DNA of 41,956 bases, from the IMG/VR virus record IMGVR_UViG_3300040801_003073, positions 1-41,956 of that record; one strand, written 5' to 3'. The first letter of the stretch is position 1; each line of letters starts with the position of its first letter. The translations under genes and the position numbers were made by a program. This document shows positions 1,361 through 41,956 of the stretch, piece by piece. The notes under the pieces were generated by a model. The model saw nothing but the letters and a program-made list of their open reading frames with translations. It did not search any database and was not told the origin of the DNA. Source of the DNA: a virus.

Positions 1361-2702
1361 TCTTATTGAATATGGTTGTTATCATTATTTAGGTGCATAT
1401 GCTGAATATGTAAAAGAAGATTTCCAAAGGCCTGCACATATACAAAATATTATTAATCATTTGATTAAAGTTGAAGCAGGTGAAATTAAACGTCTAATGA
1501 TTAACGTACCGCCTCGTTTTGGTAAGTCTTATCTAGTATCGACAATATTTCCTACATGGTATCTTGGTCGAAATCCTAAAAATAATATTATATTTTCTAC
1601 ATATGGGCAAAGCCTTGCTGATGATTTTGGTAGGCAGGTTCGTAACATTGTACAAGATGAAAGATTTCAAGAAATATTCCCTGAAGTTAAGCTTGCTGAT
1701 GATAGCGCAAGTGTAAAGAAATTTGCTGTTAATCAAGGTGGTGTTTATTATGCAATAGGCGCTGGCGGGTCATTAACTGGTAAGGGTGGATCACTTATTA
1801 TTCTTGATGACGTGCTTAGAAATAGAGCAGATGCAAACTCATCTACTATAAGAAAAAATATTCTCGATTGGTATAAATCAACTCTATATACAAGGCTTGC
1901 ACCAGGTGGCTGCATAGTATTTATTAATACACGTTGGCATCAAGATGATCTTGCTGGTTATTTATTACAACATGAGCCTGAGTCATGGACGCATATTAAC
2001 ATGCCTGCTATATCAGATGATGGGCATTCTTTATGGCCTGAACGATGGCCTCTTGATAAGCTTGAAGAGATAAAAAAATCAATAGGCTCTTATGAATGGT
2101 CGGCATTATACCAACAATCACCTGCGCCTCAAGATGGGGGTATGTTTAATAAAGCATGGTTTGAAATTGTTAATGCCAAGACTGTAAATAATATAAAATC
2201 AATAAGATATTGGGATAGGGCTGCCACTGTTAAAAAAGATGGCAACGATCCTGATTGGACTGTAGGCGTTAAGATGTCTAAAACAAAAGAAGGCCTTTTT
2301 TATATTGAAGATGTAGTAAGGCTTAGGGCAAGTTCTTTAGATGTGCAAAAAGCTATACATAATACAGCCGTTCGTGATGGCACATCTACTGTCGTAGGTT
2401 TGGAGCAAGATCCTGGCTCTGCTGGTAAGTCAGAAGTTGATTACTTAACTCGTATGTTATCAGGCTTTATTGTAAAAACATTTAAGGTAACAAAAGATAA
2501 AGTAACAAGAGCATCGCCATTCTCTGCGCAATGTGAGGCGGGTAATGTTAGAATGCTCAAAGCCTCTTGGAATAATGATTTACTTGAAGAATTATCGATG
2601 TTTCCATTTTCAAAAAACGATGATCAAACGGACGCTGCTTCAGGATGTTTCAATTATTTAACTGAAGATAAATTTAGCTATGAAAGCATGGTAAGGTGGT
2701 AA
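1347..2702 (+). CDS. terL: Terminase large subunit (ATPase-nuclease packaging motor)
   Basis: This 451-aa protein has the two TerL domains. The ATPase has Walker A at residues 54-61 (VPPRFGKS) and Walker B at about 139-145 (SLIILDDV). The C-terminal RNase H-like nuclease shows YWDRAAT, then QDPGSAGKSEVDYL and a late acidic NDDQTDAASG. This matches the phage terminase C-terminal family TIGR01630. The protein powers DNA translocation into the prohead through the portal and cuts concatemers. I chose ATG 1347; an in-frame TTG at 1329 would add six residues but has no advantage. The end is close to the family's usual end, so the following HNH gene does not interrupt it. Confidence 0.93.
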   Translation: MNPNDLIEYGCYHYLGAYAEYVKEDFQRPAHIQNIINHLIKVEAGEIKRLMINVPPRFGKSYLVSTIFPTWYLGRNPKNNIIFSTYGQSLADDFGRQVRNIVQDERFQEIFPEVKLADDSASVKKFAVNQGGVYYAIGAGGSLTGKGGSLIILDDVLRNRADANSSTIRKNILDWYKSTLYTRLAPGGCIVFINTRWHQDDLAGYLLQHEPESWTHINMPAISDDGHSLWPERWPLDKLEEIKKSIGSYEWSALYQQSPAPQDGGMFNKAWFEIVNAKTVNNIKSIRYWDRAATVKKDGNDPDWTVGVKMSKTKEGLFYIEDVVRLRASSLDVQKAIHNTAVRDGTSTVVGLEQDPGSAGKSEVDYLTRMLSGFIVKTFKVTKDKVTRASPFSAQCEAGNVRMLKASWNNDLLEELSMFPFSKNDDQTDAASGCFNYLTEDKFSYESMVRW

Positions 2703-2746
2703 TAAGTATAGATTTTAAAATAGATTCGTGCTATGGTTATTTTGTT

Positions 2747-3409
2747 ATGGGAAGAATTTATAAAACAGCATCTACTACTGAAAGTATAATATATAAAGGG
2801 ATAAAATTTAATCGTTATCCAAATAGTAAAAATCCATCTCATAGAAAATATTATAGACCTCATGCAAATTATATAAAACAAGGTATAACATCATTACATA
2901 GAGAAATATGGAAAGATAATTTTGGTAAAATTCCAAAAGGCTATGATATACATCATAAAGATCATGATTTTAATAATAATTCTATAGATAATCTCATATG
3001 TATTTCAAAAAAAGAACACGCTAATCAACATGCAGAAGAAAATGCTATAAGAGGAAGAAGTGAAAAACAATTAAAACATTTAAATAAAATAAGAAATTTA
3101 ACAAAAGAATGGCATGCAAGCCAAGAAGGAAAGGAATGGCATAAACAACATGTAAAAAATTCTTTAGCAAAAGTAGAAAAAAAAGAATTTAAATGCATTA
3201 ATTGTGAAAAAGTATTTTACTCAATAATTACAAATTCAAAATGTTGTTGTAGAAAATGTTATACAAAATGGTATGAAAAACATAAAAGAAAAAGAAAATT
3301 AATAGATAAAATTTGTAAATTTTGTAATAAATCTTTTCAAGCAGATAGAAAAAAAACATTATTTTGTTCTTATTCATGCTCTGTTAAGTCTAGAAACATA
3401 TATATGTAA
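2747..3409 (+). CDS. HNH homing-type endonuclease with C-terminal zinc knuckles
   Basis: The 220-aa protein has an HNH_3-type core: HREIWKDNFGKIPKGYDIHH, then KDHDFNNNSIDNL, then KKEHANQH. Two Cys-rich modules follow (CINCEKVF...CCCRKC and CKFCNKSF...FCSYSC), likely zinc-binding DNA-contact units. Free-standing HNH genes nick DNA and spread by homing, and commonly sit between terminase and portal genes. Base use is still more A-rich than its neighbours, a sign of separate origin. No good RBS is visible. The start is uncertain: a GTG at 2696 overlapping the terL end would add 17 residues. Both flanking genes are intact, so it is an insertion between genes and not an intron or intein. Confidence 0.85.
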   Translation: MGRIYKTASTTESIIYKGIKFNRYPNSKNPSHRKYYRPHANYIKQGITSLHREIWKDNFGKIPKGYDIHHKDHDFNNNSIDNLICISKKEHANQHAEENAIRGRSEKQLKHLNKIRNLTKEWHASQEGKEWHKQHVKNSLAKVEKKEFKCINCEKVFYSIITNSKCCCRKCYTKWYEKHKRKRKLIDKICKFCNKSFQADRKKTLFCSYSCSVKSRNIYM

Positions 3410-5215: not shown

Positions 5216-5578
5216 ATGGATTTAAAAGATTTAGAAATTAATCAGCTGGTTATAGAATGGCTTCGCTATCATATACCTCGTTATATAGATAAAAATATGC
5301 CAATCATGGTAGCAGATGAGGTGGATAAAATACCTGCTGCTATCAGTATTCGTAATGCTTATATCAAAGAAGATGAACTTAATATTGAACTTACCTCAAA
5401 TGAAATAATTAACTTAGGCTCGATTGTAAATTATGAATTAATAAAAAAAGAAATTAAATTACAATTAGATAATATTAAATTAGAAGACAAGGTTAAAAAG
5501 GAAAATTTAAAAAAAGATCTTTATAATTATCTTAAAAAGGTTAAAATGGATTTAAAGGATAATATAAAGGTAAAATAA
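5216..5578 (+). CDS. Hypothetical 120-aa protein in the head operon
   Basis: The N-terminal half is mixed alpha/beta (INQLVIEWLRYHIPRYIDKN). The C-terminal half is Lys/Leu/Asp-rich and helical, ending in alternating Lys-rich helices. It fits tightly between the coiled-coil gene and the GIY-YIG gene with 1-2 nt gaps. No domain was recognised and no function is assigned. Confidence 0.65.
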   Translation: MDLKDLEINQLVIEWLRYHIPRYIDKNMPIMVADEVDKIPAAISIRNAYIKEDELNIELTSNEIINLGSIVNYELIKKEIKLQLDNIKLEDKVKKENLKKDLYNYLKKVKMDLKDNIKVK

Positions 5579-5579
5579 A

Positions 5580-6239
5580 ATGTGGGAAAAAATTTCTAAA
5601 TGTACTTTAAGTTCAAAACATGATTCATACTGGAGATTAAGAAGTAAAAATTCTATTATTTGTTTAAATTCTAAATTTTGTAAACAACATAATATAAAGA
5701 AAAATAATAGTTATGCAGAGGTTTATCTGGATAATATAAATCATAAGTTAGCATTAAAAATTTCTGATGAAAGATTATCTGATGATTCTTATTTAATTAC
5801 ACAGGATGGTGGAAAAAGATCTGCACTAGAAAATAAATATACTGCTATTATTTGTTGTCCTACTATTTTTAAAAAGAATAATCGTTTAAATAAACTTGCG
5901 GAATATAAATATAACTTAATACCTACTTTTGATCGTGATTATAATTTCTTTTCAGTAAATTTACCACCTTGTTTTGAATTAAATGATTTAAATTCAATAG
6001 ATGATAATTCTAAAGGTATATATCAATTAAAATATAATAATAAAATAATGTATATTGGATGTGGTAATATAAAATCTAGAATTAGAACACACAAGAGAAA
6101 TCAGTTAGCATTTGATGATATATCTTTTTCTTTAACAGATGAGCATCAATATTGGGAAAATTATTGGTTAAAATACTATTTAGATAAAAATGGTGAATTA
6201 CCTATTCATAATACTTTATTAACAAACGGGGATTTATGA
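5580..6239 (+). CDS. GIY-YIG family endonuclease
   Basis: The 219-aa protein carries a C-terminal GIY-YIG nuclease module. Visible are GIY at residues 146-148, YIG at 158-160, R167/R169 and H171 in the central helix, E193 as candidate catalytic Glu and N211 in PIHNTLL. The N-terminal ~140 residues have no recognised domain and may be the DNA-recognition part. Such free-standing nucleases are typical homing endonucleases of phage genomes; a role in DNA processing is the alternative. It overlaps the next gene by 4 nt and starts 1 nt after the previous one. Its A-rich codon use resembles the HNH gene and is unlike the late genes. Confidence 0.8.
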   Translation: MWEKISKCTLSSKHDSYWRLRSKNSIICLNSKFCKQHNIKKNNSYAEVYLDNINHKLALKISDERLSDDSYLITQDGGKRSALENKYTAIICCPTIFKKNNRLNKLAEYKYNLIPTFDRDYNFFSVNLPPCFELNDLNSIDDNSKGIYQLKYNNKIMYIGCGNIKSRIRTHKRNQLAFDDISFSLTDEHQYWENYWLKYYLDKNGELPIHNTLLTNGDL

Positions 6240-7021
6240 TTGATGATAAAATATTAGATCAAATAAAAGATCCAGCTGCTGCATTAGTCTTAGCAGAATG
6301 GTTGCAAGATTTAATAAAAATTTATAATAATAAAAATCCAAACTTAATTACTAATGTTGAATTAGAAGATAATCATATAGTTGTTTCTTTTTTAGATGGC
6401 ACTAAAAAATCAACTAAAGATATTGTTGGTCTGCCTCCTGAACATCGCTATGTTGAAAAAGATAATTGCATACAGTTTAAACAGCCTGATGGCGAATGGG
6501 GTATATGCATACCTATAGAAGACAAACGCACAGTAAAGGTGGATAATTATGGTGGTTCTATCGGTCAACCTATTATTACAAAGCTTAGCGTATTATTTAA
6601 TAATATACTTATTGATAGCAATGTTCAAAAAATAGATTTTACGGGATCTGTTAATGTTACCAAAGTAGAAGATAAGTTTGTGCGGGTTGAAGTTTTTACT
6701 GGTCTTGTTTGGGATACCTTAACTGCCGATACAGTCTTAGAAAATAATAAAGGATATATAATCGATGGAAATGTACAATTAAATTTAACCTTGCCTGATA
6801 ATTGCGATATTGGCGACACTATCGAAATTTTGATGGGAAGTGTTGAAGGCTTTAGGTTAGTAGCGCCATCTGGAATTGATTTTTTTATGGGTAAAAAGCA
6901 AGTAGTTAATTATCTTGAAAATGCTCCTGGGCAAATTAATTCTGCTTTGGCAATTAAATGTAATTATGCTAATCTAAAATATATAGTAACCTCATCTATG
7001 GGGAATTTTACTATTAACTAG
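6236..7021 (+). CDS. Fibre- or decoration-like virion protein A
   Basis: The 261-aa protein has a helical start (DPAAALVLAEWLQDLIKIY), a middle part resembling fibre N-terminal modules (HIVVSFLDGTKKSTKDIVGLPPEH), and a C-terminal beta-rich domain (VWDTLTADTVLENNKGYIID...LTLPDNCDIGDTIEI...SSMGNFTIN). That last domain is clearly related to the C-terminal domain of the next gene. Four G residues 5 nt upstream act as RBS. The beta-domain is typical of surface fibres or decoration proteins. Its place inside the head operon suggests a head fibre or accessory surface protein; this is inference. Confidence 0.6.
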   Translation: MIDDKILDQIKDPAAALVLAEWLQDLIKIYNNKNPNLITNVELEDNHIVVSFLDGTKKSTKDIVGLPPEHRYVEKDNCIQFKQPDGEWGICIPIEDKRTVKVDNYGGSIGQPIITKLSVLFNNILIDSNVQKIDFTGSVNVTKVEDKFVRVEVFTGLVWDTLTADTVLENNKGYIIDGNVQLNLTLPDNCDIGDTIEILMGSVEGFRLVAPSGIDFFMGKKQVVNYLENAPGQINSALAIKCNYANLKYIVTSSMGNFTIN

Positions 7022-12318: not shown

Positions 12319-13266
12319 ATGACTGAGAAAATTCAATCAATAAATCTTGATGCGAATGAAACCGCGTTTTTCGCAAGAGAATTAGAATACATTAAAGCAG
12401 GTACTTATGATGTATTATATCCAACATTAAAAGCTACACAATTGATTCCAGTATCTACAAATGCTGGTGCTGGTGCTGAATCAATCACATATCAGCAATT
12501 TGATCAATTAGGTATGGCTAAAGTTATCGCTAACTATGCTGATGACTTACCAAGAGCAGATATTAAAGGTAAAGAATTTACTTCACCTATTAGATCACTT
12601 GGTGCTTCTTATGGATATAACGTTCAAGAAATCAGAGCTGCGCAATATGCTAATCGTAACTTAACAGGACGTAAAGCTAATGCAGCAAGAAGAGCTATTG
12701 AGCAAAAAATTAACAACATAGGTTGGTTTGGTGAAGCTGCTAACAATCTATTAGGAATAGTTAATCATCCAAATGTAACAAGAGTTGCAGCTCCACAAAA
12801 TGCTGGTGCAACATCTACATTATGGGCTAACAAAACTCCTGATGAGATTTTAGCTGACATGAATAATACAGCTAATGGTATTGTTGATTTAACAAATGGT
12901 GTTGAAGCTCCAAACACTTTGTTAATGCCAATTGATCAATATACCTACATTGCATCTACTGCAAGAAGTGCAAATTCTGACACAACAATTCTAGAATACT
13001 TTTTAATGAACAATCCATTTATCAACAGAGTTGAGTGGGTTAATGAATTAAAAGGTGCTGCTGTTGGTGGATTTGGCGTTGACAGTAATGATGTTATGAT
13101 CGCATATGATAATAATCCTGATAAATTAACTTTAGAAATTCCACAACCTTTTGAGCAGTTCCCTGCACAAGAAAGAGGCTTAGAATTCTTAATTAATTGT
13201 CATGCTAGAGTTGGTGGGGTAATTGTATATTATCCATTATCAATTGCTATTATGGAAGGCATATAG
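12319..13266 (+). CDS. Major capsid protein, DUF2184 family
   Basis: The 315-aa protein matches the DUF2184 major capsid family (HK97 fold). Seen are an N-terminal arm (ARELEYIKAGTYDVLYPTLKA), the ...DLPRADIKGKEFTSPIRSLGASYGYN strand, the RKANAARRAIEQKIN spine helix, and the conserved close LEFLINCHARVGGVIVYYPLSI. It forms the icosahedral shell around the scaffold. Position after the cement gene and before connector genes is standard. Two hairpins follow its stop, as expected of a highly expressed, possibly separately processed message. Confidence 0.92.
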   Translation: MTEKIQSINLDANETAFFARELEYIKAGTYDVLYPTLKATQLIPVSTNAGAGAESITYQQFDQLGMAKVIANYADDLPRADIKGKEFTSPIRSLGASYGYNVQEIRAAQYANRNLTGRKANAARRAIEQKINNIGWFGEAANNLLGIVNHPNVTRVAAPQNAGATSTLWANKTPDEILADMNNTANGIVDLTNGVEAPNTLLMPIDQYTYIASTARSANSDTTILEYFLMNNPFINRVEWVNELKGAAVGGFGVDSNDVMIAYDNNPDKLTLEIPQPFEQFPAQERGLEFLINCHARVGGVIVYYPLSIAIMEGI

Positions 13267-13276
13267 GATTAAAGAA

Positions 13277-13300
13277 ATACATTTTTTCATAGGAATGTAT
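13277..13300 (+). promoter_or_regulatory. Hairpin 1 after the capsid gene
   Basis: A 7-bp inverted repeat ATACATT / AATGTAT with a 10-nt loop lies just behind the capsid stop codon. It is not followed by a clean T-run, so mRNA stabilisation is as likely as weak termination. Confidence 0.35.
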
Positions 13301-13317
13301 GTCCTTTTATTTGAAAA

Positions 13318-13349
13318 GTAGGGTAACCCTTTAATAAGAGTTACCCTGC
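13318..13349 (+). promoter_or_regulatory. Hairpin 2 after the capsid gene (attenuator or mRNA stabiliser)
   Basis: A 10-bp stem (GTAGGGTAAC / GTTACCCTGC, one G-T pair) with a 12-nt loop is followed by A-rich, not T-rich, sequence. It therefore lacks a terminator tail. It may protect the capsid mRNA 3' end or partly attenuate transcription into the connector genes. Confidence 0.5.
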
Positions 13350-13368
13350 TCACAACACAAAAAAAATC

Positions 13369-13375
13369 GGGGGGG
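13369..13375 (+). promoter_or_regulatory. Seven-G ribosome-binding site after the capsid hairpins
   Basis: Seven G residues in an ATC-G7 context lie 4 nt before an in-frame TTG (13380) and 10 nt before ATG 13386, so the start of the downstream gene is ambiguous by two codons. Confidence 0.55.
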
Positions 13376-13385
13376 ATTTTTGATT

Positions 13386-13733
13386 ATGAAGTTGAAGAGC
13401 AATTTAACATATGTTTACGTTGTTGGCAAAAACTATATTATGCCAGGGCTAAATTATATTGAAGATGTGTCGATACTTGATCACCCTCATGTACAGGGTC
13501 ATATAGAGCATAATAACTTAGAATTATTATCTGATTTGCCTAAGAAAAATGGTGCATTTGGTAAAGTTGAATTAGATTATGCAAATATGAACGCTAAAGA
13601 ATTGGCTCGTGAAATCAAAGAGATATATGATCTTAAATTACTAGAGAAGATTCAAAAAAATGATACAAGAAAACTTGTATTAGATGCAGTTGAAAAACAA
13701 TTGCAAAGTTTTAGAGAAGAAGATGGAGAATAA
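13386..13733 (+). CDS. Hypothetical protein at the capsid-connector boundary
   Basis: A 115-aa protein. The N-terminal half is beta-like (LTYVYVVGKNYIMPGLNYIED), the C-terminal half helical and charged (NAKELAREIKEIYDLKLLEKI). In related myoviruses a small protein with a C-terminal helical, SAP- or Rho-N-like region often occupies this slot. I see only the secondary-structure resemblance, not a domain match. The next gene begins 3 nt after its stop. Start may be TTG 13380 instead. Confidence 0.65.
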   Translation: MKLKSNLTYVYVVGKNYIMPGLNYIEDVSILDHPHVQGHIEHNNLELLSDLPKKNGAFGKVELDYANMNAKELAREIKEIYDLKLLEKIQKNDTRKLVLDAVEKQLQSFREEDGE

Positions 13734-13736
13734 TTT

Positions 13737-14096
13737 ATGTCAATCGATACGATTCTTTTAGATATAGCACCTGAAATGGCAAGCGTTGATCCCGCAGTTC
13801 GCGCAAGATTAATTTCTTATGCAACATTTCAAGTTGGTTTTAGATGTAATAACGATGTAAAGAATTTAGCGATTGCTTATTTAACAGCTCACAATTATAC
13901 ATTATCGCAACGTGGCGGCGTTGGTGGAAATATAACATCAGAAAAAGAGGGGGACCTTGCGCGTAGTTTTGGTGGTGCAATGCAAGATGGAACTGGTCTT
14001 GGTAGCACAAGTTATGGCATGGAGTTTTTACGACTCAAGAAAATGTTTATACTCACACCTCGTACACGTCAGGTTAATATAAATAATGACTGTTAG
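13737..14096 (+). CDS. Head-tail connector protein, DUF4054
   Basis: The 119-aa protein matches DUF4054: helical N terminus, then LAIAYLTAHNYTLSQRGGVG, the VTSEK-like SEKEGDLARSFGG, and GLGSTSYGMEFLRL. This family is the head-completion adaptor that docks on the portal (gp6/gp15-like). Its last 11 nt overlap the next gene. The ATG is 3 nt past the previous stop. Confidence 0.85.
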   Translation: MSIDTILLDIAPEMASVDPAVRARLISYATFQVGFRCNNDVKNLAIAYLTAHNYTLSQRGGVGGNITSEKEGDLARSFGGAMQDGTGLGSTSYGMEFLRLKKMFILTPRTRQVNINNDC

Positions 14097-15480: not shown

Positions 15481-16776
15481 ATGAGTATACGTGACATAGT
15501 TAACGTACAAATTACAAGACAAACCACACCTGTGAGCCAAAGAGGATTTGGTGTTGTTATGATCTTGGGAACACACAAAGTTTTTAATGAAAGAATTCGT
15601 TATTATCAAGAAGCGGATGCGATTCTAGAAGATGGGTTTGAGTCTACAAGTCCAGAATATATTGCAGCTCTTGCAGTATTATCACAACAACCTAGACCAA
15701 TTCAATTAGCAATAGGTAGAAGATCAGTTGATGATGTTGTAATGACTGTAGCAACTGTTGCAGACTCTACAAATTACACAACAACAATTAATGGTACTGA
15801 TTTTACAATTAATTCAGGTGTAGGTGCAACAGCAGAAAGTATTGCGCTAGCATTAGTTGGAGCAATTAACGCTGGTAGTGAGCCTGTAACTGCAGTTGAT
15901 AATGTAGATGGCACTTATGATCTTAATGCAGATGTAACAAACGATGCATGGACATTATCTTTTGATGAAAATCAAACTGTAGCTGATTATGTAGCAAGTG
16001 ATGCATTACAAGATGACTTAACAGCAGTTAATGAGGAAAATGATGACTGGTATGGTTTAGTTATTACATCAAGAGTTAAACAAGATGTATTAGACGCTGC
16101 TGCATGGTGTGAAGCTCGTATTAAATTATTTGGTACTGCTTCAGATGACACAGATATTTTAGATGCTTTATCTACAACAGATATTGCTTTTGAATTATCA
16201 GATGCAGAATATGCAAGAACATTTGTTATGTATCATGATGAAGCTGCTGACATATATCCAGAAGCTGCATGGTTTGGGTTACAATTCCCAACACCTCCAG
16301 GATCTACAACATGGGCATTTAAAACATTAGCTACAATACCTTCTGTGAAGTTATCAGCTACACAGCGTATTAATGCACAAAACAAGAATTGTAATACTTA
16401 TGAAAACAGAGGTGGAGTAAGTTTTGCATATCAAGGAAAAGTTGCTGCTGGTGAGTTTATAGATGTTATTCGTGGTGTTGATTGGTTACAAGCTCGTATG
16501 ACAGAAAGAATTTTCTCTAGACTTGTTAACTTACCTAAGATTCCTTATACAGATCCAGGTGCTGCGATTGTTGAAGCTGAGATAAGAGCACAATTAGATG
16601 TAGCGATTGCACAAGGTTTAATTGCAGCTGATCCACAATATACAGTTACAATTCCTAAAGTTGCAGATCAAGCATTTAATGATAGAGCAAATAGGTATTT
16701 CCCTAACATCACATTCTTTGCGACCTTGGCTGGTGCTATTCATAGCCTTGAGGTTCGTGGAACAGTTTCAGTTTAA
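15481..16776 (+). CDS. Contractile tail sheath protein, DUF3383
   Basis: The 431-aa protein begins with IVNVQITRQTTPVSQRGFG, diagnostic of DUF3383 sheath proteins, and ends with the conserved sheath core (...GVDWLQARMTERIFSRLVNL...GLIAADPQYTVTIPKVADQ...RYFPNITFFATLAGAIHSLEVRGTV). Residues ~86-164 are an inserted beta-domain shared with the cement and baseplate J proteins. The sheath wraps the tube and contracts to drive it through the envelope. Strong RBS and its own upstream hairpin fit a major structural product. Confidence 0.9.
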   Translation: MSIRDIVNVQITRQTTPVSQRGFGVVMILGTHKVFNERIRYYQEADAILEDGFESTSPEYIAALAVLSQQPRPIQLAIGRRSVDDVVMTVATVADSTNYTTTINGTDFTINSGVGATAESIALALVGAINAGSEPVTAVDNVDGTYDLNADVTNDAWTLSFDENQTVADYVASDALQDDLTAVNEENDDWYGLVITSRVKQDVLDAAAWCEARIKLFGTASDDTDILDALSTTDIAFELSDAEYARTFVMYHDEAADIYPEAAWFGLQFPTPPGSTTWAFKTLATIPSVKLSATQRINAQNKNCNTYENRGGVSFAYQGKVAAGEFIDVIRGVDWLQARMTERIFSRLVNLPKIPYTDPGAAIVEAEIRAQLDVAIAQGLIAADPQYTVTIPKVADQAFNDRANRYFPNITFFATLAGAIHSLEVRGTVSV

Positions 16777-22178: not shown

Positions 22179-22547
22179 ATGACAGAAAACAGAGATTTGA
22201 AGTTGGATACTCTTACCCATGATCTTCAAATCGCCAGATATGATTTACAATTAGTTGATAATATAGGATCAACTGCACAGCGTCTTAAAGTGCGTTTAAA
22301 ATTCTTCCTTACGGAATGGTTTTTAGACCGTCGTTCAGGCGTACCTTATTTGCAAGAAATTTTAGAAAAATCTCCTGATTTACAATATGTAGAAAATATA
22401 TTCAAAACAGTCATTTTAACAACTCCTCGCGTAATACAATTAACCAGTTTTTCATTAGATTATGACAATTTAACACGTCGTTTAATTGTTACATTTAGTG
22501 TTCTTACTGATGATGGGGAAATAATATTTAACGAGGTGTTACCATGA
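22179..22547 (+). CDS. Baseplate wedge protein, gp25/GPW family
   Basis: The 122-aa protein (IGSTAQRLKVRLKFFLTEWFLDRRSGVPYLQEIL...TTPRVIQLTSFSLDYDNLTRRLIVTFSV) fits the gp25/GPW lysozyme-like wedge family with the conserved EWFLD and GVPY segments. It initiates sheath assembly on the baseplate. It overlaps the baseplate J start by 4 nt. Confidence 0.85.
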   Translation: MTENRDLKLDTLTHDLQIARYDLQLVDNIGSTAQRLKVRLKFFLTEWFLDRRSGVPYLQEILEKSPDLQYVENIFKTVILTTPRVIQLTSFSLDYDNLTRRLIVTFSVLTDDGEIIFNEVLP

Positions 22548-23980
22548 GTTTTGGACTTACTCCTTTAGGCTTTATTCGTAAGCGCCTAGATGATGTCAAA
22601 GCAGAATTAGAGGCTGCTGTATTAGATGAGTTTGGTGAAGTAAATACTGAACCTGATAGTGTATTTGGGCAGTTAATAGGTATATTTTCTAATGTTATAG
22701 CTAACTTATGGCAAGAGATGGAGAATACATATTTTTCTCAATATCCTGCTACTGCTGATGGTGTTAGTTTAGACAATGCTGTTGATTTAGTTGGTATAAG
22801 ACGACTTGAGGCAACCAAGTCTAGAGTGCTAGCAAGTATAACAGGTGATCAATCTACTTTAATACCTGCAGGATCTCAGGTATCTGTTGCAGAGACGGGC
22901 GAAATATTTGAAAATCCAGAAGATGGGGTTATCACAAGAAGCAACGCACAAATATTAGTTATTGAAGTGACTCAAGTTACAGATTCAACGGATTATACAG
23001 TTTTAGTTAATGGCGTTTCTATCACCTATAATAGTGGTGTAGGAGCTACCGCCGATACAATTGCAGCAGGATTAGTATCTGCAATTAATGGAGAAACCGA
23101 ACCTGTTACTGCCAATGATCTTGGTGGTGGCGAATTTGATATAACTACTGATCAAGATGATCTGGCATTTAATGGAAGCGTGGGTACGGGACTTACTATC
23201 ACATCCAGAACATCTCCATTGCTCTTCGAGGCCTTAGAGACGGGGCCGATTACTGTTTTGTCAGGAACCTTTACGGAAATTGTAACGCCAGTTAATGGGT
23301 GGGATAGCGTTTCCAATATAGAAGATGGTGTTGCAGGTAGAGATTTAGAGACAGATCAGGAGTTAAGAATTAGACGCTTAAATTCTATACGTGTATTGGG
23401 TGCAGGTTCGGTAGAAGCTATACAAGCAAGATTAAGACAAGAGGTGCAGGATGTATTAAATGCACTTGTATTTGAAAATAGGGAGCCGTTTGAAGTTGAT
23501 GGCAGACCTGCGCATAGTTTTGAGACTGTTGTGCAAGGTGGTGATGATACTGAGATAGCTGAAAAGATATGGGAATTAAAGCCAGCAGGCATACAGACAT
23601 TTGGTAATGTAAATGTTTTAATTACAGATAGTAATGGCGATTCACAATCGATATTTTTCTCAAGGCCTGAGCCTGTTTATGTATGGGTAGAAGTTGACTT
23701 AACTGTTATTAGTGGTGAGTTTTCGGCAGAGGGTCCAGATGCGGTTGCTGCGGCAATTTTGGCATTTGGTCAATCTTATAATGTAGGTGAGGATATTTTA
23801 TATCAAGAATTTACGCAGCCTATTTATAATGTAGGTGGCATAGAATTAATTGATTTAACATTAGCAACTTCGGCAACACCTGCGGGGCCTCCAGGGGCAT
23901 ATAGTGCTGCTAATTTAACAATTAATGAAGTTGAGATTGGTGATTTTGATTTAACAAGAATTACGGTTAATGTGTTATGA
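22544..23980 (+). CDS. Baseplate J-like wedge protein with inserted beta-domain
   Basis: The 478-aa protein has the baseplate J/gp47 architecture: a helical N terminus (FIRKRLDDVKAELEAAVLDEFG...SVFGQLIGIFSNVIANLWQEME), DNAVDLVGIRRLEATKSRV, and a conserved centre WDSVSNIEDGVAGRDLETDQELRIRR. Residues ~136-221 are an insert homologous to those in the sheath (TDSTDYTVLVNG...YNSGVGATADTIA) and cement proteins. The protein forms the wedge around the hub. Its end overlaps the next gene (ATGA). Confidence 0.88.
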   Translation: MSFGLTPLGFIRKRLDDVKAELEAAVLDEFGEVNTEPDSVFGQLIGIFSNVIANLWQEMENTYFSQYPATADGVSLDNAVDLVGIRRLEATKSRVLASITGDQSTLIPAGSQVSVAETGEIFENPEDGVITRSNAQILVIEVTQVTDSTDYTVLVNGVSITYNSGVGATADTIAAGLVSAINGETEPVTANDLGGGEFDITTDQDDLAFNGSVGTGLTITSRTSPLLFEALETGPITVLSGTFTEIVTPVNGWDSVSNIEDGVAGRDLETDQELRIRRLNSIRVLGAGSVEAIQARLRQEVQDVLNALVFENREPFEVDGRPAHSFETVVQGGDDTEIAEKIWELKPAGIQTFGNVNVLITDSNGDSQSIFFSRPEPVYVWVEVDLTVISGEFSAEGPDAVAAAILAFGQSYNVGEDILYQEFTQPIYNVGGIELIDLTLATSATPAGPPGAYSAANLTINEVEIGDFDLTRITVNVL

Positions 23981-35744: not shown

Positions 35745-36074
35745 ATGGCAAGCTATAGATTAAATTTTGTAAAAAATATCTTAGAAAAAATAATACCACC
35801 TACAAAACCAATAGATAAAACAGGTGGTGTTTATGATACGTATTATGATTTAAAAGAAAGGGGCTTAATTTTAATTGTTTCTAATGGTGGAAATAAAACT
35901 TTTTATCTATATAAAAAAATTAAAAATAATCCTGAAAGAATAAAATTAGGAGGCTTTCCTGAATTATCTATATATGAAGCAAGAAAATTGGCTCAACAAA
36001 ATAAAAGATTAATTATTTCTGGAATAAATCCTAACCATGAAAAAAGAAAACTAAAAAGAATAACTAACGCTTAG
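35745..36074 (+). CDS. Stand-alone integrase arm-type DNA-binding domain
   Basis: The 109-aa protein matches the N-terminal arm-binding domain (DUF4102) of P4-type tyrosine integrases: GVYDTYYDLKERGLILIVSN, GGNKTFYLYKKI, KLGGFPELSIYEARKLAQQN, and GINPNHEKRK. The catalytic domain (R...HxxR...Y) is missing; after residue 109 the frame stops and the next genes run leftward. It may be a decayed integrase, or a small DNA-binding regulator or directionality factor. No intact integrase exists elsewhere in the window. It overlaps the next leftward gene by 11 nt at the 3' ends. Confidence 0.72.
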   Translation: MASYRLNFVKNILEKIIPPTKPIDKTGGVYDTYYDLKERGLILIVSNGGNKTFYLYKKIKNNPERIKLGGFPELSIYEARKLAQQNKRLIISGINPNHEKRKLKRITNA

Positions 36075-36780: not shown

Positions 36781-36809
36781 CTTTTTTTATTTTCTAATTT
36801 TGTTATTAT
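36781..36809 (+). promoter_or_regulatory. Promoter copy 1 (candidate small RNA)
   Basis: A T-rich segment ending in TATTAT (36804-36809) shares 26 identical bases with copy 2 (36781-36806 = 36992-37017). The -35 region is weak (T-run). Confidence 0.45.
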
Positions 36810-36812
36810 ACT

Positions 36813-36934
36813 ATTGCACAACATAAAAAGTGTTGAAGGTTTTTTCCTTAAAGGATCAGGTACCTTTTTTTCTACTGGTTGTGCATTTATCATTTCGAAA
36901 AAAGGGAGCGCTAATTTGCCATCCCTTTTTTTTT
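36813..36934 (+). ncRNA. Candidate small structured RNA with its own terminator
   Basis: About 120 nt lie between promoter copy 1 and an intrinsic terminator, without a reading frame. The first 71 nt are closed by a perfect 8-bp helix TGCACAAC (36815-36822) / GTTGTGCA (36878-36885). Inside, AAAAAG pairs with CTTTTT and AAGG-T6-CCTT forms a hairpin. The last 40 nt are the terminator. It could be a regulatory or antisense RNA; no known family was recognised. Low-complexity A and T runs weaken the inner helices as evidence. Confidence 0.4.
36898..36934 (+). terminator. Intrinsic terminator of the candidate small RNA
   Basis: A 10-bp stem AAAAAAGGGA / TCCCTTTTTT (36898-36907 with 36922-36931) with a 14-nt loop runs into nine T residues. 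The A/T symmetry means it can also work leftward. Confidence 0.75.
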
Positions 36935-36991
36935 ATAAAAAACCATCTAAATATTTAATTTCGTTCACAAAATTCATCCCTTTTTTTTCTT

Positions 36992-37020
36992 CTTTTTTTA
37001 TTTTCTAATTTTGTTATAAT
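36992..37020 (+). promoter_or_regulatory. Promoter copy 2 (alpha-CTD operon)
   Basis: The same 26-bp core as copy 1 ends here in a perfect TATAAT (37015-37020), 53 nt before the first ATG of the operon. Confidence 0.5.
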
Positions 37021-37026
37021 GTTTGC

Positions 37027-37068
37027 GGGGGCAATGCTAGCCTAGGTTGCCCCTGTTCAAATAAGGGG
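37027..37068 (+). promoter_or_regulatory. Leader with two mutually exclusive hairpins
   Basis: Hairpin A pairs GGGGCAA (37028-37034) with TTGCCCC (37047-37053) around a 12-nt loop. Hairpin B pairs CCCCT (37050-37054) with AGGGG (37064-37068), which is the Shine-Dalgarno of the next gene. Both need the same CCCC, so A would free and B would hide the RBS. Confidence 0.45.
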
Positions 37069-37073
37069 ATAAT

Positions 37074-37487
37074 ATGACAAATTATATTTATTGTAACGGC
37101 GTATTGATAAAAGCAGAAACTAAAGAAGAATTAGAAGAAAAGATACAAATAGAAAAAGAAATACAAAGATGCTGCTATAAAAGAATGCCAAAGTTATTTG
37201 AAGAATTTAAAGAAACTTTTAATGAATATTATGATGAAATAGAAAGTTATGCATTTGAAAAAATTATCCTTGCAGAAGATCAAATGCTACCAAAAAAATT
37301 TTTGTCAGAAATGCCCAATATAAATATTAAACAATTAAAACAAATGCTAAATCATGTCCGTGAATTATTTAGATTTTATTTAATATTAAGAGAAGAATAT
37401 ACTATGTCTAAATTCTTAATTTATAATTCTACATCTGTATGCACAATTAAAAGAATTAGAAAAAGAATTCAAAATATGAAAGGATAA
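37074..37487 (+). CDS. Hypothetical 137-aa protein, first of the alpha-CTD operon
   Basis: The protein has a short beta start (TNYIYCNGVLIKAETKEELE) and then long helices (LFEEFKETFNEYYDEIESYAFEKI...IKQLKQMLNHVRELFRFYLI), ending with a basic tail (TIKRIRKRIQNMKG). The middle helix resembles that of the 108-aa leftward protein nearby. No known domain. The next gene starts 1 nt after its stop, so the two are co-expressed. Confidence 0.65.
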   Translation: MTNYIYCNGVLIKAETKEELEEKIQIEKEIQRCCYKRMPKLFEEFKETFNEYYDEIESYAFEKIILAEDQMLPKKFLSEMPNINIKQLKQMLNHVRELFRFYLILREEYTMSKFLIYNSTSVCTIKRIRKRIQNMKG

Positions 37488-37488
37488 T

Positions 37489-38247
37489 ATGGATTTACAA
37501 CAAGCTTTAGATAAAATATTATTTTTAAAAAATAAAATTGCAGAACAAGAAACTATCATTACTAATTTAAAAAATAAATATAATACACTTACCGTTAAAT
37601 TAAATAATGCTAATACAAATTATAAAGATTTATCAAATAGGTTTGATGAACAAAAATATGAGCTTGAAAGAATACATTATAATAATCAATTGGATTTAAA
37701 AGAATATAAGTCTAAAATAAGTGATTTAAAAATTGAAATTGAAAGCAAATCACCTGATTATATAAGAAAAAATATTGAATATGAATTTAGAAATGAGGTT
37801 AATAATTTAAAACAACGATTAGTAAATTATGAATTATTATTTGAATCAATGAATGGCGAAAATAATTTAGATTTATTAATTATGGATTTAAAAGAATTAA
37901 CAGAAAAATATAAAAATAAAAATATAGGAAAAATTTTTAATTGGAAAAATAACAGTGTTTTAGCATTGCCTTTGGATGATTTAGATATTACTATCCGCAC
38001 ATCAAATTGTTTGAAAAATGAAGGTATAAAATATATAGGCGATTTAATTCAATATAGCGAAAAAGAATTATTGCGTATACCCAACTTTGGCAGAAAATCA
38101 TTAAATGAATTAAAGACTATAGTAAGAAATTTACATTTAAATTTTGGGGCAACTATTTATAATTGGCCTCCTGAAAATATAGAAGAATTATCTATACAAG
38201 TTTTAGATAAATACAATGAAATTATTCATAGGATATCATATGCATGA
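37489..38247 (+). CDS. Coiled-coil protein fused to an RNA polymerase alpha C-terminal domain
   Basis: In this 252-aa protein residues ~1-120 are a long coiled coil. Residues ~159-233 are an unmistakable RNAP alpha-CTD: PLDDLDITIRTSNCLKNEGI, KYIGDLIQYSEKELLRIPNF, GRKSLNELKTIV, ...NWPPENI. By alignment from memory with E. coli alpha, R170, N173, C174, K176, G201, K203, S204 and E207 correspond to R265, N268, C269, K271, G296, K298, S299 and E302. These residues bind UP-element DNA and activators. The alpha N-terminal (assembly) domain is absent. It may bind UP elements, compete with host alpha or bridge regulators; that is inference. It overlaps the next gene by 8 nt. Confidence 0.88.
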   Translation: MDLQQALDKILFLKNKIAEQETIITNLKNKYNTLTVKLNNANTNYKDLSNRFDEQKYELERIHYNNQLDLKEYKSKISDLKIEIESKSPDYIRKNIEYEFRNEVNNLKQRLVNYELLFESMNGENNLDLLIMDLKELTEKYKNKNIGKIFNWKNNSVLALPLDDLDITIRTSNCLKNEGIKYIGDLIQYSEKELLRIPNFGRKSLNELKTIVRNLHLNFGATIYNWPPENIEELSIQVLDKYNEIIHRISYA

Positions 38248-38941
38248 CTACAAAGAACTTTTTACTAATCTTAAAATCAAATATGACAATTTAGTGACAA
38301 AACATAATAAAGCATTGGAAGAGCATAAAAAACAATTAGATAAAATTGAAGCTCTTAATAAAGATATCAAGCTACAACGTAATGCCGTCGAATCCGAGTT
38401 AATGCATTATGTAAAACTTTATAATGAAGCCGAAAATAAATATTTAAAAGAAAAAGAATTAAATGATATTTGTTTTCAAGTAGAAAAAGATGTAGAGATT
38501 ATAGAGAAAGCAATTGAAGGTCAATATTTCAATATGCCAGAACTTTTAAAAGAATTAGATGGCTTAGAAGCAAAATTTAAAGATATATCAGAATCTTTTA
38601 CTTGTTATTTATTCGATTGTTTTATTAAAGCAGAATTAGACTTAAAAGAATTTCTTGATATAATAAATAAACAACCTATAGCATTTTGCGATTGGGAAGA
38701 CACTGAAGATAAAGAATTGGATCAACTTACTATAGAATTATTTGAAATATTAGAAAAATTAGAAAATAAACACGAGAAAGTTGATAATATAGAATTACAA
38801 GAACAATATGAAAAAAGAAAAAATATTAGAGAGCTAAAAGGATATATTGAACAAATAAATCAATTAATAAATATAATTCGACTAAAATTAACTGATGAAA
38901 TAATTGATTTTAAAAAATATAAGAGTAAACAATGGCAGTAA
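38240..38941 (+). CDS. Long coiled-coil protein downstream of the alpha-CTD gene
   Basis: The 233-aa protein is nearly all helical with heptad-like Leu/Ile spacing (YNLVTKHNKALEEHKKQLDK-like runs, ...LEKLENKHEKVDNIELQEQY, ...INQLINIIRLKLTDEI). A central part reads LKELDGLEAKFKDISESFTC. No domain recognised. It is translationally coupled (8-nt overlap) to the alpha-CTD protein, whose N terminus is also a coiled coil, so the two may form a complex. ATG 38240 has an AGGA RBS. Confidence 0.7.
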   Translation: MHDYKELFTNLKIKYDNLVTKHNKALEEHKKQLDKIEALNKDIKLQRNAVESELMHYVKLYNEAENKYLKEKELNDICFQVEKDVEIIEKAIEGQYFNMPELLKELDGLEAKFKDISESFTCYLFDCFIKAELDLKEFLDIINKQPIAFCDWEDTEDKELDQLTIELFEILEKLENKHEKVDNIELQEQYEKRKNIRELKGYIEQINQLINIIRLKLTDEIIDFKKYKSKQWQ

Positions 38942-39126
38942 GTAAAGATATGTTATTAGAAGCAGCTAAGCATGGCCGCGACGACATAAAAAAAAGAATA
39001 GAAGAAACCGTAAGTAAAATAAATGCACTTGAAGACGATTTAAAGTTTTTCAAATTAAAATTAAATGATTATACTACGGTTATAGACGAATTCTCAAACG
39101 ATAAAGAGATTAGACACGATGATTAA
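38932..39126 (+). CDS. Small coiled-coil protein (64 aa)
   Basis: A helical protein (DMLLEAAKHGRDDIKKRIEE, TVSKINALEDDLKFFKLKLN) with a heptad pattern. It overlaps the upstream gene by 10 nt and the following 39-aa frame by 8 nt. This is the third coiled-coil product in a row, in keeping with a multi-protein complex. Confidence 0.65.
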   Translation: MAVSKDMLLEAAKHGRDDIKKRIEETVSKINALEDDLKFFKLKLNDYTTVIDEFSNDKEIRHDD

Positions 39127-39238
39127 AAAAATATTTTTTATTCTTATATTAACTGCAATAATATCATTGCCTTATAAAGCTCAAGCTAAAAAACCATTCT
39201 GCATTCATTTGCCTGATGGTGTTATTTTATGCATGTAG
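39119..39238 (+). CDS. 39-aa exported peptide with signal sequence
   Basis: A short frame with a textbook signal peptide: KK charge, hydrophobic core (IFFILILTAIISLPY) and a KAQA cleavage-like end. The mature part would be only 16 residues with two cysteines (KKPFCIHLPDGVILCM). It overlaps both neighbours, and the next gene starts within its end in another frame. The overlap with a small membrane protein recalls spanin pairs, but no lipobox is present. It may be a secreted microprotein. Confidence 0.5.
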   Translation: MIKKIFFILILTAIISLPYKAQAKKPFCIHLPDGVILCM

Positions 39239-39429
39239 ACTTTGATAAATTAGATCCTATTTTATATAACTATATAATTGCTTTTGGAATAATTCTAATT
39301 ATAATCCTGCTTATCATATTAATTTTTATTGTTATAAAAAATGACAAATATATTAAAGAAATTGGGGATAATAAAAAAGAAGAAGGAATTTTCTGGGGCA
39401 ATGGTGATAGTGGACGATTTGGGGAATGA
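39229..39429 (+). CDS. Small single-span membrane protein (66 aa)
   Basis: A strong membrane helix (IIAFGIILIIILLIILIFIVI) is followed by a polar tail (KNDKYIKEIGDNKKEEGIFW). It overlaps the 39-aa frame by 10 nt and the 81-aa frame by 89 nt, each in a different frame. The hydrophobic span argues that it is real. Function unknown. Confidence 0.5.
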   Translation: MHVDFDKLDPILYNYIIAFGIILIIILLIILIFIVIKNDKYIKEIGDNKKEEGIFWGNGDSGRFGE

Positions 39430-39586
39430 GCAAGTTATATCATTTAGAGATAAAATAAGATTAGAAATATATGGCGATATAGACTTTCAAGAATGGCGCC
39501 TACCTAATCAAACATATGTAGAACGCTTTGGAACTAAGCGTGACGTTGATCTTAAAGAAGCGAAATTTTACCCTTCTTTTAAATGA
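39341..39586 (+). CDS. Hypothetical 81-aa protein overlapping the membrane gene
   Basis: The protein (AMVIVDDLGNEQVISFRDKI, RLEIYGDIDFQEWRLPNQTY) has a beta-like core that resembles KIIVSTGQNEEHIEFTQPIS-x-x-YMGEVHIHN of the next gene, so they may share a small domain. The first 89 nt overlap the membrane gene out of frame, a case of overprinting. It ends 54 nt before the next gene. Confidence 0.55.
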   Translation: MTNILKKLGIIKKKKEFSGAMVIVDDLGNEQVISFRDKIRLEIYGDIDFQEWRLPNQTYVERFGTKRDVDLKEAKFYPSFK

Positions 39587-39640
39587 TAGTTTTTTATGAT
39601 ATTCTGAAAGTGAAGACTATTTATTTATAAGGGGGAATGT

Positions 39641-40108
39641 ATGAGTAAATGGAAGACCGCTTTACACACTATAAAACGTGCTTTTATGTGCTGCATAAGA
39701 TGCACTGATATCGTAGACCGCATGACTAGAACTGCAACAGAAGAATTGGAAGCTAATCACAACGAAAGCACAAGTAATGAAGGCCGCAAATCCAGCGTGG
39801 CAAAAATTATTGTATCTACTGGCCAAAATGAGGAGCATATAGAATTTACCCAACCTATATCAATTAAATATATGGGCGAGGTTCATATACATAATGAAAG
39901 CAATAATTACTACACACCAAGTAGAAGCCCTAAAATCACACCTAACAATAGCGAAGTTGATCTTGTAAAAACTATTGAAAGAGCAGTAGAGGAAGGCAGA
40001 TTTGGCAGGTTAATACAACGTAGAACTATAGATTCAGTTGAAGGCAGAAGAATTCAACAGATACTTAGCCGAGAAGATAATAATAATTTACTTGTACCAC
40101 ATATGTAA
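39641..40108 (+). CDS. Hypothetical 155-aa protein, last gene of the operon
   Basis: The N terminus is basic with two Cys pairs (RAFMCCIRCTDIVDRMTR). The middle shows a short beta-domain (AKIIVSTGQNEEHIEFTQPI, SIKYMGEVHIHNES). The C terminus is helical and charged (TIERAVEEGRFGRLIQRRTI). No known domain. A five-G RBS gives the start, and a strong terminator follows 67 nt after its stop. Confidence 0.65.
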   Translation: MSKWKTALHTIKRAFMCCIRCTDIVDRMTRTATEELEANHNESTSNEGRKSSVAKIIVSTGQNEEHIEFTQPISIKYMGEVHIHNESNNYYTPSRSPKITPNNSEVDLVKTIERAVEEGRFGRLIQRRTIDSVEGRRIQQILSREDNNNLLVPHM

Positions 40109-40174: not shown

Positions 40175-40212
40175 AGGAGGAGTGACTTAAAAATCATTCC
40201 TCCTTTTTTTTT
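40175..40212 (+). terminator. Strong intrinsic terminator of the accessory operon
   Basis: An 11-bp stem AGGAGGAGTGA / TCATTCCTCCT (one G-T pair) with an 8-nt loop runs straight into nine T residues. It separates the operon from the convergent 75-aa gene. Confidence 0.9.
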
Positions 40213-41455: not shown

Positions 41456-41956
41456 ATGAATGATAATTTTAAAGGTATCCTATATTATATAGGGTGCTGT
41501 CTTTGCTTTGTACTTTGTAGTATACTTAGTAAATATACCCCTAACTCAAATCCTTTCACTATCATATTTTTTAGAGATATTTTCTGTCTAGGTTATGCAT
41601 TTATTTGGATAATGACAAAAGATAATGAATTATTTAAAACTAAGCAGATTGGAGTGCAAGCCATAAGATCCATATTTGCCTTCTTAGGCATAACATGCTG
41701 GCTTAATGCTGTTAAATATATTCCTTTACCAGAGGCCACAGCGCTTAATTTAATGGTGCCTATATTCAGCTCGATCATTGCCATATTATTCTTAAAAGAA
41801 CGCTTACGTTTAGGTAGGCTTATTGGGATTATGGTAGCTATGTATGGTGCCTATATAATAGTTAATCCAGATTTAAATAACTTTAATATATATTATCTGC
41901 TGCCATTAGGATCGGCGTTAATGTTTAGTATATACAATAATATAGTGCGTTTTCTA
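41456..41956 (+). CDS. DMT/EamA-family transporter, cut by the right edge
   Basis: 167 residues of the N-terminal EamA domain are visible, still open at the window end: FKGILYYIGCCLCFVLCSIL, an FFRDIFCLGYAFIWI helix, GITCWLNAVKYIPLPEATAL, then NLMVPIFSSIIAILFLKERL and GIMVAMYGAYIIVNP. These are five or six of the ten membrane helices of a DMT transporter. EamA proteins export or import small metabolites; in intracellular bacteria some carry S-adenosylmethionine. The substrate cannot be told from this part. The start is 7 nt after the 80-aa gene. It could be host flank or phage cargo. Confidence 0.85.
   Translation, partial: MNDNFKGILYYIGCCLCFVLCSILSKYTPNSNPFTIIFFRDIFCLGYAFIWIMTKDNELFKTKQIGVQAIRSIFAFLGITCWLNAVKYIPLPEATALNLMVPIFSSIIAILFLKERLRLGRLIGIMVAMYGAYIIVNPDLNNFNIYYLLPLGSALMFSIYNNIVRFL

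Follow-up and report, generated by a model that had tools for sequence, protein, structure and literature searches.

We found that an operon of eight genes (g1 to g8, plus strand, positions 37074-40108) in the viral record IMGVR_UViG_3300040801_003073, whose 41,956 bases are the window analysed here, is best explained as a moron-like accessory operon built by recombination. Its second gene, g2, appears to be an optional member that joins a probable coiled coil to the 3' end of rpoA, i.e., to the C-terminal domain of the RNA polymerase alpha subunit (alpha-CTD), and its product would bind A/T-rich grooves. We give this explanation about an even chance of being right. It holds that recombination assembled the operon of this tailed phage, whose host would be a probably AT-rich alphaproteobacterium, with slots between near-identical blocks (the leader with g1, and g5-g6-g7) that would house diverging or optional genes. 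The coiled coil would unite two or more alpha-CTDs in one molecule, and the oligomer would bind narrow A/T-rich minor grooves (UP-element-like sites), perhaps also sigma or activators, like the alpha-CTD of RNA polymerase itself, and would compete with or substitute for the alpha-CTDs of the host polymerase at chosen promoters. The remaining operon genes would not be required for this action.

The g2 gene (37489-38247, plus strand) encodes 252 amino acids (aa), with the probable coiled coil at residues 1-150 and an alphaproteobacterial-type RpoA C-terminus at residues 155-246. The latter matches RNA_pol_A_CTD in Pfam (E=1.8e-21, 76 bits vs. a gathering cutoff of 23.8), can be aligned with alphaproteobacterial RpoA sequences through to their end, tail WPPENIEEL included, at about 49-58% identity, and over its C-terminal ~90 residues retrieves RpoA chains in PDB with E-values down to 2e-25. 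An N-terminal domain of the alpha subunit (alpha-NTD) is absent from g2, as the RpoA model was matched at positions 243-335 only (106 bits vs. a cutoff of 302). UP-element DNA is contacted in the Escherichia coli alpha-CTD by R265, N294, K291, and K298, according to PMC7822876. The corresponding residues of g2 are R, N, R, and K, i.e., K291 is replaced by arginine and the others are kept. Also retained are N268, C269, K271, G296, S299, E302, D258, and D259, residues with roles in the alpha-CTD. Overall, g2 is most likely an oligomeric A/T minor-groove binder that would disturb or redirect host RNA polymerase.

Searching 385 alphaproteobacterial genomes with g2 gave a match in 366, three of which (G145, G182, and G252) have two, and among the matches listed these look like each genome's rpoA. 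An alpha-CTD tree aimed at the donor (79 columns, long branches) did not resolve it. Homology of the g2 coil to the g3 family, for which pairwise shuffles had looked suggestive (0/500 and 6/500), was rejected because a profile of three g3-type N-termini missed g2 and nothing related to residues 1-150 of g2 turned up in the sequences compared.

Scanning viral contigs with g1 identified one relative, IMGVR_UViG_3300022701_000186 (hereafter the sister); a second contig (L079), found by its terminase, is 99.9% the same virus, and the operon comparison rests on two phages. The sister has the same gene order as the window, comprising g1, g3-g8, a minus-strand ORF (open reading frame), a serine recombinase gene, and g10, and g2 is missing. 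The earlier note on this DNA had proposed looking for the gene set in related phages and had placed the alpha-CTD gene at the centre of the operon. The sister indeed carries seven of the eight genes in order, so these are real genes and not chance ORFs and the operon is a real common unit, yet the alpha-CTD gene is an optional member of it and not its centre. Viral scans with g1, g2, g3, g7, and g8 revealed no operon relative beyond this one sister, a genome scan with g8 revealed none, and tblastn searches with g8 and g1 in phages and with g8 in plasmids returned nothing of weight. The 115 loci fetched by terminase (36 genome and 79 viral) contained no operon relatives, and weak recombinase matches occurred in five of them.

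The operon genes differ sharply in their divergence from the sister. Synonymous divergence (dS, Nei-Gojobori) of 18 backbone pairs, which were picked for alignment over most of their length with other homologous pairs omitted, ranges from 0.36 to 1.11 (median 0.72). It is low for g1 (0.13), g5 (0.08), g6 (0.09), and g7 (0.24), where the g6/g7 overlap depresses the values of these two somewhat and the g5 overlap is minimal. It reaches 0.73-0.75 for g3 and g4, whose protein identity is just 37-38%, and 0.89-1.09 for g8 (1.09), the recombinase, and g10. Nucleotide identity in 60-base steps is 53-73% up to 39140, 90-98% across 39141-39560, and 53-82% thereafter; it jumps from 73% to 97% at the start of g5 and falls from 97% to 68% at the end of g7. 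The boundary of the g1 block is the g1 stop codon with the ribosome site that follows, and g2 sits at the inner edge of the block comprising the leader and g1, just 3' of an AAAGGA ribosome site that precedes g3 in the sister. The dS pattern and the identity steps indicate that the leader with g1 and g5-g7 are blocks that were swapped recently, and the intervening genes were not. If any part of the operon forms a working subunit, g5-g7 are the best candidate, since they move together as a block.

The leader (36985-37073, plus strand) comprises a T-tract, an extended -10 promoter element at 37009-37020 (TTTTGnTATAAT), and a hairpin at 37028-37053 (GGGGCAA...TTGCCCC), and it is conserved in the sister, where about 36980-37090 are almost identical. 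The core promoter element is present in two copies in the window and was found in 0/100 shuffles. The second copy (36781-36809, one copy of a 29-nucleotide (nt) repeat) lies upstream and leads into a structured stretch of ~120 nt that ends in a terminator-like stem with a T run. This plus-strand region (36781-36936, fold z -4.0) has no counterpart of weight in the sister and is a candidate phage small RNA; Rfam at the gathering score gave no match in the window, and there was one chance-level match near the candidate. Beyond g8 is a plus-strand terminator-like hairpin with a T run (40175-40212, 11-bp stem, fold z -3.5, 0/200 shuffles as good), at whose position the sister has a different stem-loop in which the long T run is missing. 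The conserved leader with its extended -10 element and the terminator-like hairpin are candidates for the one promoter and one strong terminator claimed earlier; generic scans detected no excess of sigma-70 promoter-like sites (33 vs. 30.0 expected) or of terminators (1 vs. 1.1).

Alpha-CTDs without an alpha-NTD are also encoded by other phages. A scan with the domain alignment matched 28 stretches, seven of which encode relatives (viral contigs L158-L164); all are short, lack the alpha-NTD, and represent five distinct proteins, as there are two identical pairs. The sixth distinct protein is from Ruegeria phage vB_RpoS-V16 (AWY09459.1), which was one of four examined (H6-H9) among 22 matching phage records; the other three are ordinary RpoA sequences. 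R265, N294, G296, S299, and E302 are common to all six proteins, one of which lacks K298, and two have a non-basic residue at position 291. Their partner regions differ, which suggests that phages took the domain repeatedly. The earlier note held that alpha-CTD genes of related phages occurring without the neighbours seen here would speak against a joint system. Within the loci stretches examined, no homologues of g1 or g3-g8 are near the other viral alpha-CTD genes. Together with the sister, this nearly fulfils that refuting condition, although these genes are not g2 orthologues.

Several observations weigh against g2 as an optional, oligomeric groove binder. The heptad periodicity of its N-terminus is suggestive (17/300 shuffles as strong), and contacts with sigma and activators are more doubtful because E261 is changed to D, V257 to L, and positions 285-288 are only partly kept. 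No orthologue of g2 was found, and no binding site for it was identified. The sister retains the same promoter though it lacks g2, and with just one sister a gain of g2 in the window is indistinguishable from a loss in the sister.

A bolder extension, which we consider possible though improbable, is that g2 acts as a portable binder of UP elements in oligomeric form: through its coiled coil, several alpha-CTDs on A/T tracts would replace the contribution of host alpha at chosen promoters, including the duplicated T-tract/extended -10 type upstream of the operon, and the six other architectures would be independent versions of alpha-CTD mimicry. It is unlikely that g2 is instead a decoy for regulators of the host or of rival phages and not a DNA binder, with alpha-CTDs that sequester activators or anti-alpha factors otherwise bound by the polymerase alpha-CTD and thereby shield the phage programme or the lysogen. 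D258, D259, E286, and E288, which we take to be protein-facing, are retained alongside the DNA face, and a free alpha-CTD on a rod would be plausible bait; however, the DNA-contact residues are conserved to the same degree, in the six unrelated phage proteins too, and V257, E261, and V287 are changed in g2.

The eight plus-strand ORFs overlap their neighbours or are separated from them by 1 to 54 nt, in line with the tight packing reported before. The first, g1 (37074-37487), encodes 137 aa with 86% identity to the sister and has no heptad periodicity signal (90/300 shuffles as strong). The products of g3 (38240-38941, 233 aa) and g4 (38932-39126, 64 aa) have heptad periodicity matched by only 4/300 shuffles each, which agrees with the expectation of at least two further coiled-coil proteins; residues 1-77 of g3 are conserved (64% vs. 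37% overall), and g4 has 38% identity to its counterpart. The 39-aa peptide encoded by g5 (39119-39238) is identical to that of the sister in 38/39 residues and has an N-terminal signal-peptide-like stretch, recognized by eye, followed by two cysteines, both of which would be in a mature form of 16 residues. A single-pass membrane protein of 66 aa (hydropathy 3.77, 87% identity) is encoded by g6 (39229-39429). The start of g7 is ambiguous, with a convincing ribosome site at neither 39341 nor 39401; from the former, g7 (39341-39586) encodes 81 aa (89% identity). It shares a core with g8 (39641-40108, 155 aa, 61% identity) that spans 33 ungapped residues (z 4.0-5.1; 0-2/500 shuffles as good per pairing, four pairings), and the similar short core noted earlier in two of the proteins is thus supported.

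The earlier statement that the alpha-CTD is the only recognizable domain also holds. Against Pfam and NCBIfam, the other seven proteins had nothing above the curated cutoffs; PHROGs, where g4 scored best (E 0.00016), and PADLOC gave weak or partial matches at most. No PADLOC model matched over most of a protein; the best were short partial matches of KwaA to g6 (0.0005) and PglW to the alpha-CTD (0.0009). AlphaFold models of g8 and g1 were poor, with confidence scores (pLDDT) of 33 and 50. Another group of small genes for helical proteins is present in the sister (L002, 45-926); in it, ORF 290-751 has an N-terminus like that of g3 (0/500 shuffles as good) and a different C-terminus, so these proteins make up a multi-copy family in which the C-termini change.

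Read as an effector or interference cassette, the operon would use g1 and g5-g7 to bring coiled-coil payloads that vary (g2, g3, g4, and the further g3 relative of the sister) to the cell envelope or hold them there, acting against the host or rival phages. The outer blocks are conserved and the inner genes variable, the g3-like N-terminus recurs with another C-terminus, and both the exported peptide and the membrane protein are inside a conserved block. We nevertheless consider this quite unlikely, as no toxin, immunity, or secretion domain was found in the Pfam, NCBIfam, PHROGs, and PADLOC searches, and the comparison covers two phages only. Chance capture of g2, with no selected function, would fit its absence from the sister and the lack of an orthologue, but is very improbable for an ORF that is intact at 252 codons, has its own ribosome site, and keeps or conservatively changes all listed DNA-contact positions despite 49-58% identity to RpoA. 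Least probable of all is the earlier proposal of one co-expressed complex of all eight products that links host transcription control to the membrane: the overlapping genes, the single leader, the single terminator-like end, and the membrane protein and exported peptide in the set would suit it, but g2 is missing from the sister and the neighbours range from g5, with dS 0.08 and 97% identity, to g3 and g4, whose proteins are 37-38% identical, an uneven divergence that a tightly co-evolving complex does not predict.

An obligate complex and membrane-coupled transcription control, though possible, gain no support. What is supported is an accessory transcription unit with its own leader and terminator-like end, whose gene set recurs in a related phage and whose proteins, bar the alpha-CTD, belong to no known family; the alpha-CTD is not at its centre.

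By gene content, the IMG/VR record reads as a tailed phage, with plus-strand genes for terminase, a probable portal, capsid, a DUF3383 protein (a tail sheath family), and baseplate J. Lysozyme, RecT, and YqaJ genes follow on the minus strand, and the accessory region lies beyond these. The alpha-CTD, the terminase, and the base composition point to an alphaproteobacterium-like, AT-rich host. Scanning genomes with the terminase gave 36 loci, the best of which are in alphaproteobacteria (many Acetobacteraceae) with at most 48% identity. At E 1e-40, the terminase had zero matches in 42 and 162 genomes of two orders, which were picked as small-genome relatives from rpoA matches, and g1 had no match in 162 genomes of the chosen orders.

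Past g10, an EamA-family (DMT) transporter gene (41459-41956) is truncated at the contig end. It had no match at 1e-30 in 385 or in 162 genomes, and at 1e-18 it matched 3/162 genomes with just 32-33% identity. The window start aligns with sister positions 6274-6777, 3' of the sister's g10, so the EamA gene may be either cargo of the phage or host DNA flanking it. An integrase arm-binding domain (PF13356, E 3.5e-12) occurs alone at 35745-36074, with no catalytic part adjacent. The terminase-portal interval contains an HNH endonuclease gene (2696-3409, PF13392), and the sister has no counterpart there. Sister ORF 13011-13970 (in L005) has its counterpart in a pair of window ORFs, 5216-5578 and 6236-7021, with ORF 5580-6239 between them, which is GIY-YIG-like by eye and had no Pfam match; an insertion has thus split the gene in the window. 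Residues 78-151 of the DUF3383 protein (15481-16776) resemble residues 130-203 of baseplate J (22544-23980), and the two tail proteins thus reuse a domain, a 74-residue segment with 53-55% identity when each is compared with the other across the two phages.

Compared with the alphaproteobacterial RpoA alpha-CTD (PF03118), g2 is similar up to the C-terminal tail and keeps the DNA contacts, but has 150 residues of probable coiled coil where RpoA has the alpha-NTD. The other phage proteins (L158-L164 and vB_RpoS-V16) are likewise small and carry an alpha-CTD without an alpha-NTD, whereas g2 differs in its partner region and, in the loci stretches examined, its operon neighbours. The literature searched, with most subscription journals outside its scope, yielded no description of a phage-encoded coiled-coil alpha-CTD fusion. 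The nearest published parallel found is PglW of type 2 BREX, of which a helical domain is described as alpha-CTD-like in structure in PMC12839542; the profile match of g2 is weak (E 0.0009-0.004), and PglW is a large multidomain defence kinase to which g2 is otherwise dissimilar. Like morons (the term as used in PMC7067206) and other prophage accessory loci, the operon is an extra, mosaic unit outside the structural modules with its own leader and end; it differs in having eight genes. Of the two phages compared, one has g2 and both have g1 and g3-g8. The alpha-CTD domain and this kind of accessory operon are already known, but the libraries searched contained neither the coil-alpha-CTD protein nor the remaining families of the operon.

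Attack on, or modification of, the alpha subunit of RNA polymerase by phages is already known; phiKMV Rac (PMC7552054) and T4 Alt, ModA, and ModB (PMC7824862) are directed at it. Those enzymes modify host alpha, whereas g2 would mimic part of it. Repeated capture of the alpha-CTD itself, fused to new partners, would take over transcription in a different way, and one that is easy to test. The sister pair is a natural comparison with and without g2, and the mosaic pattern reveals which genes travel together within an uncharacterized operon.

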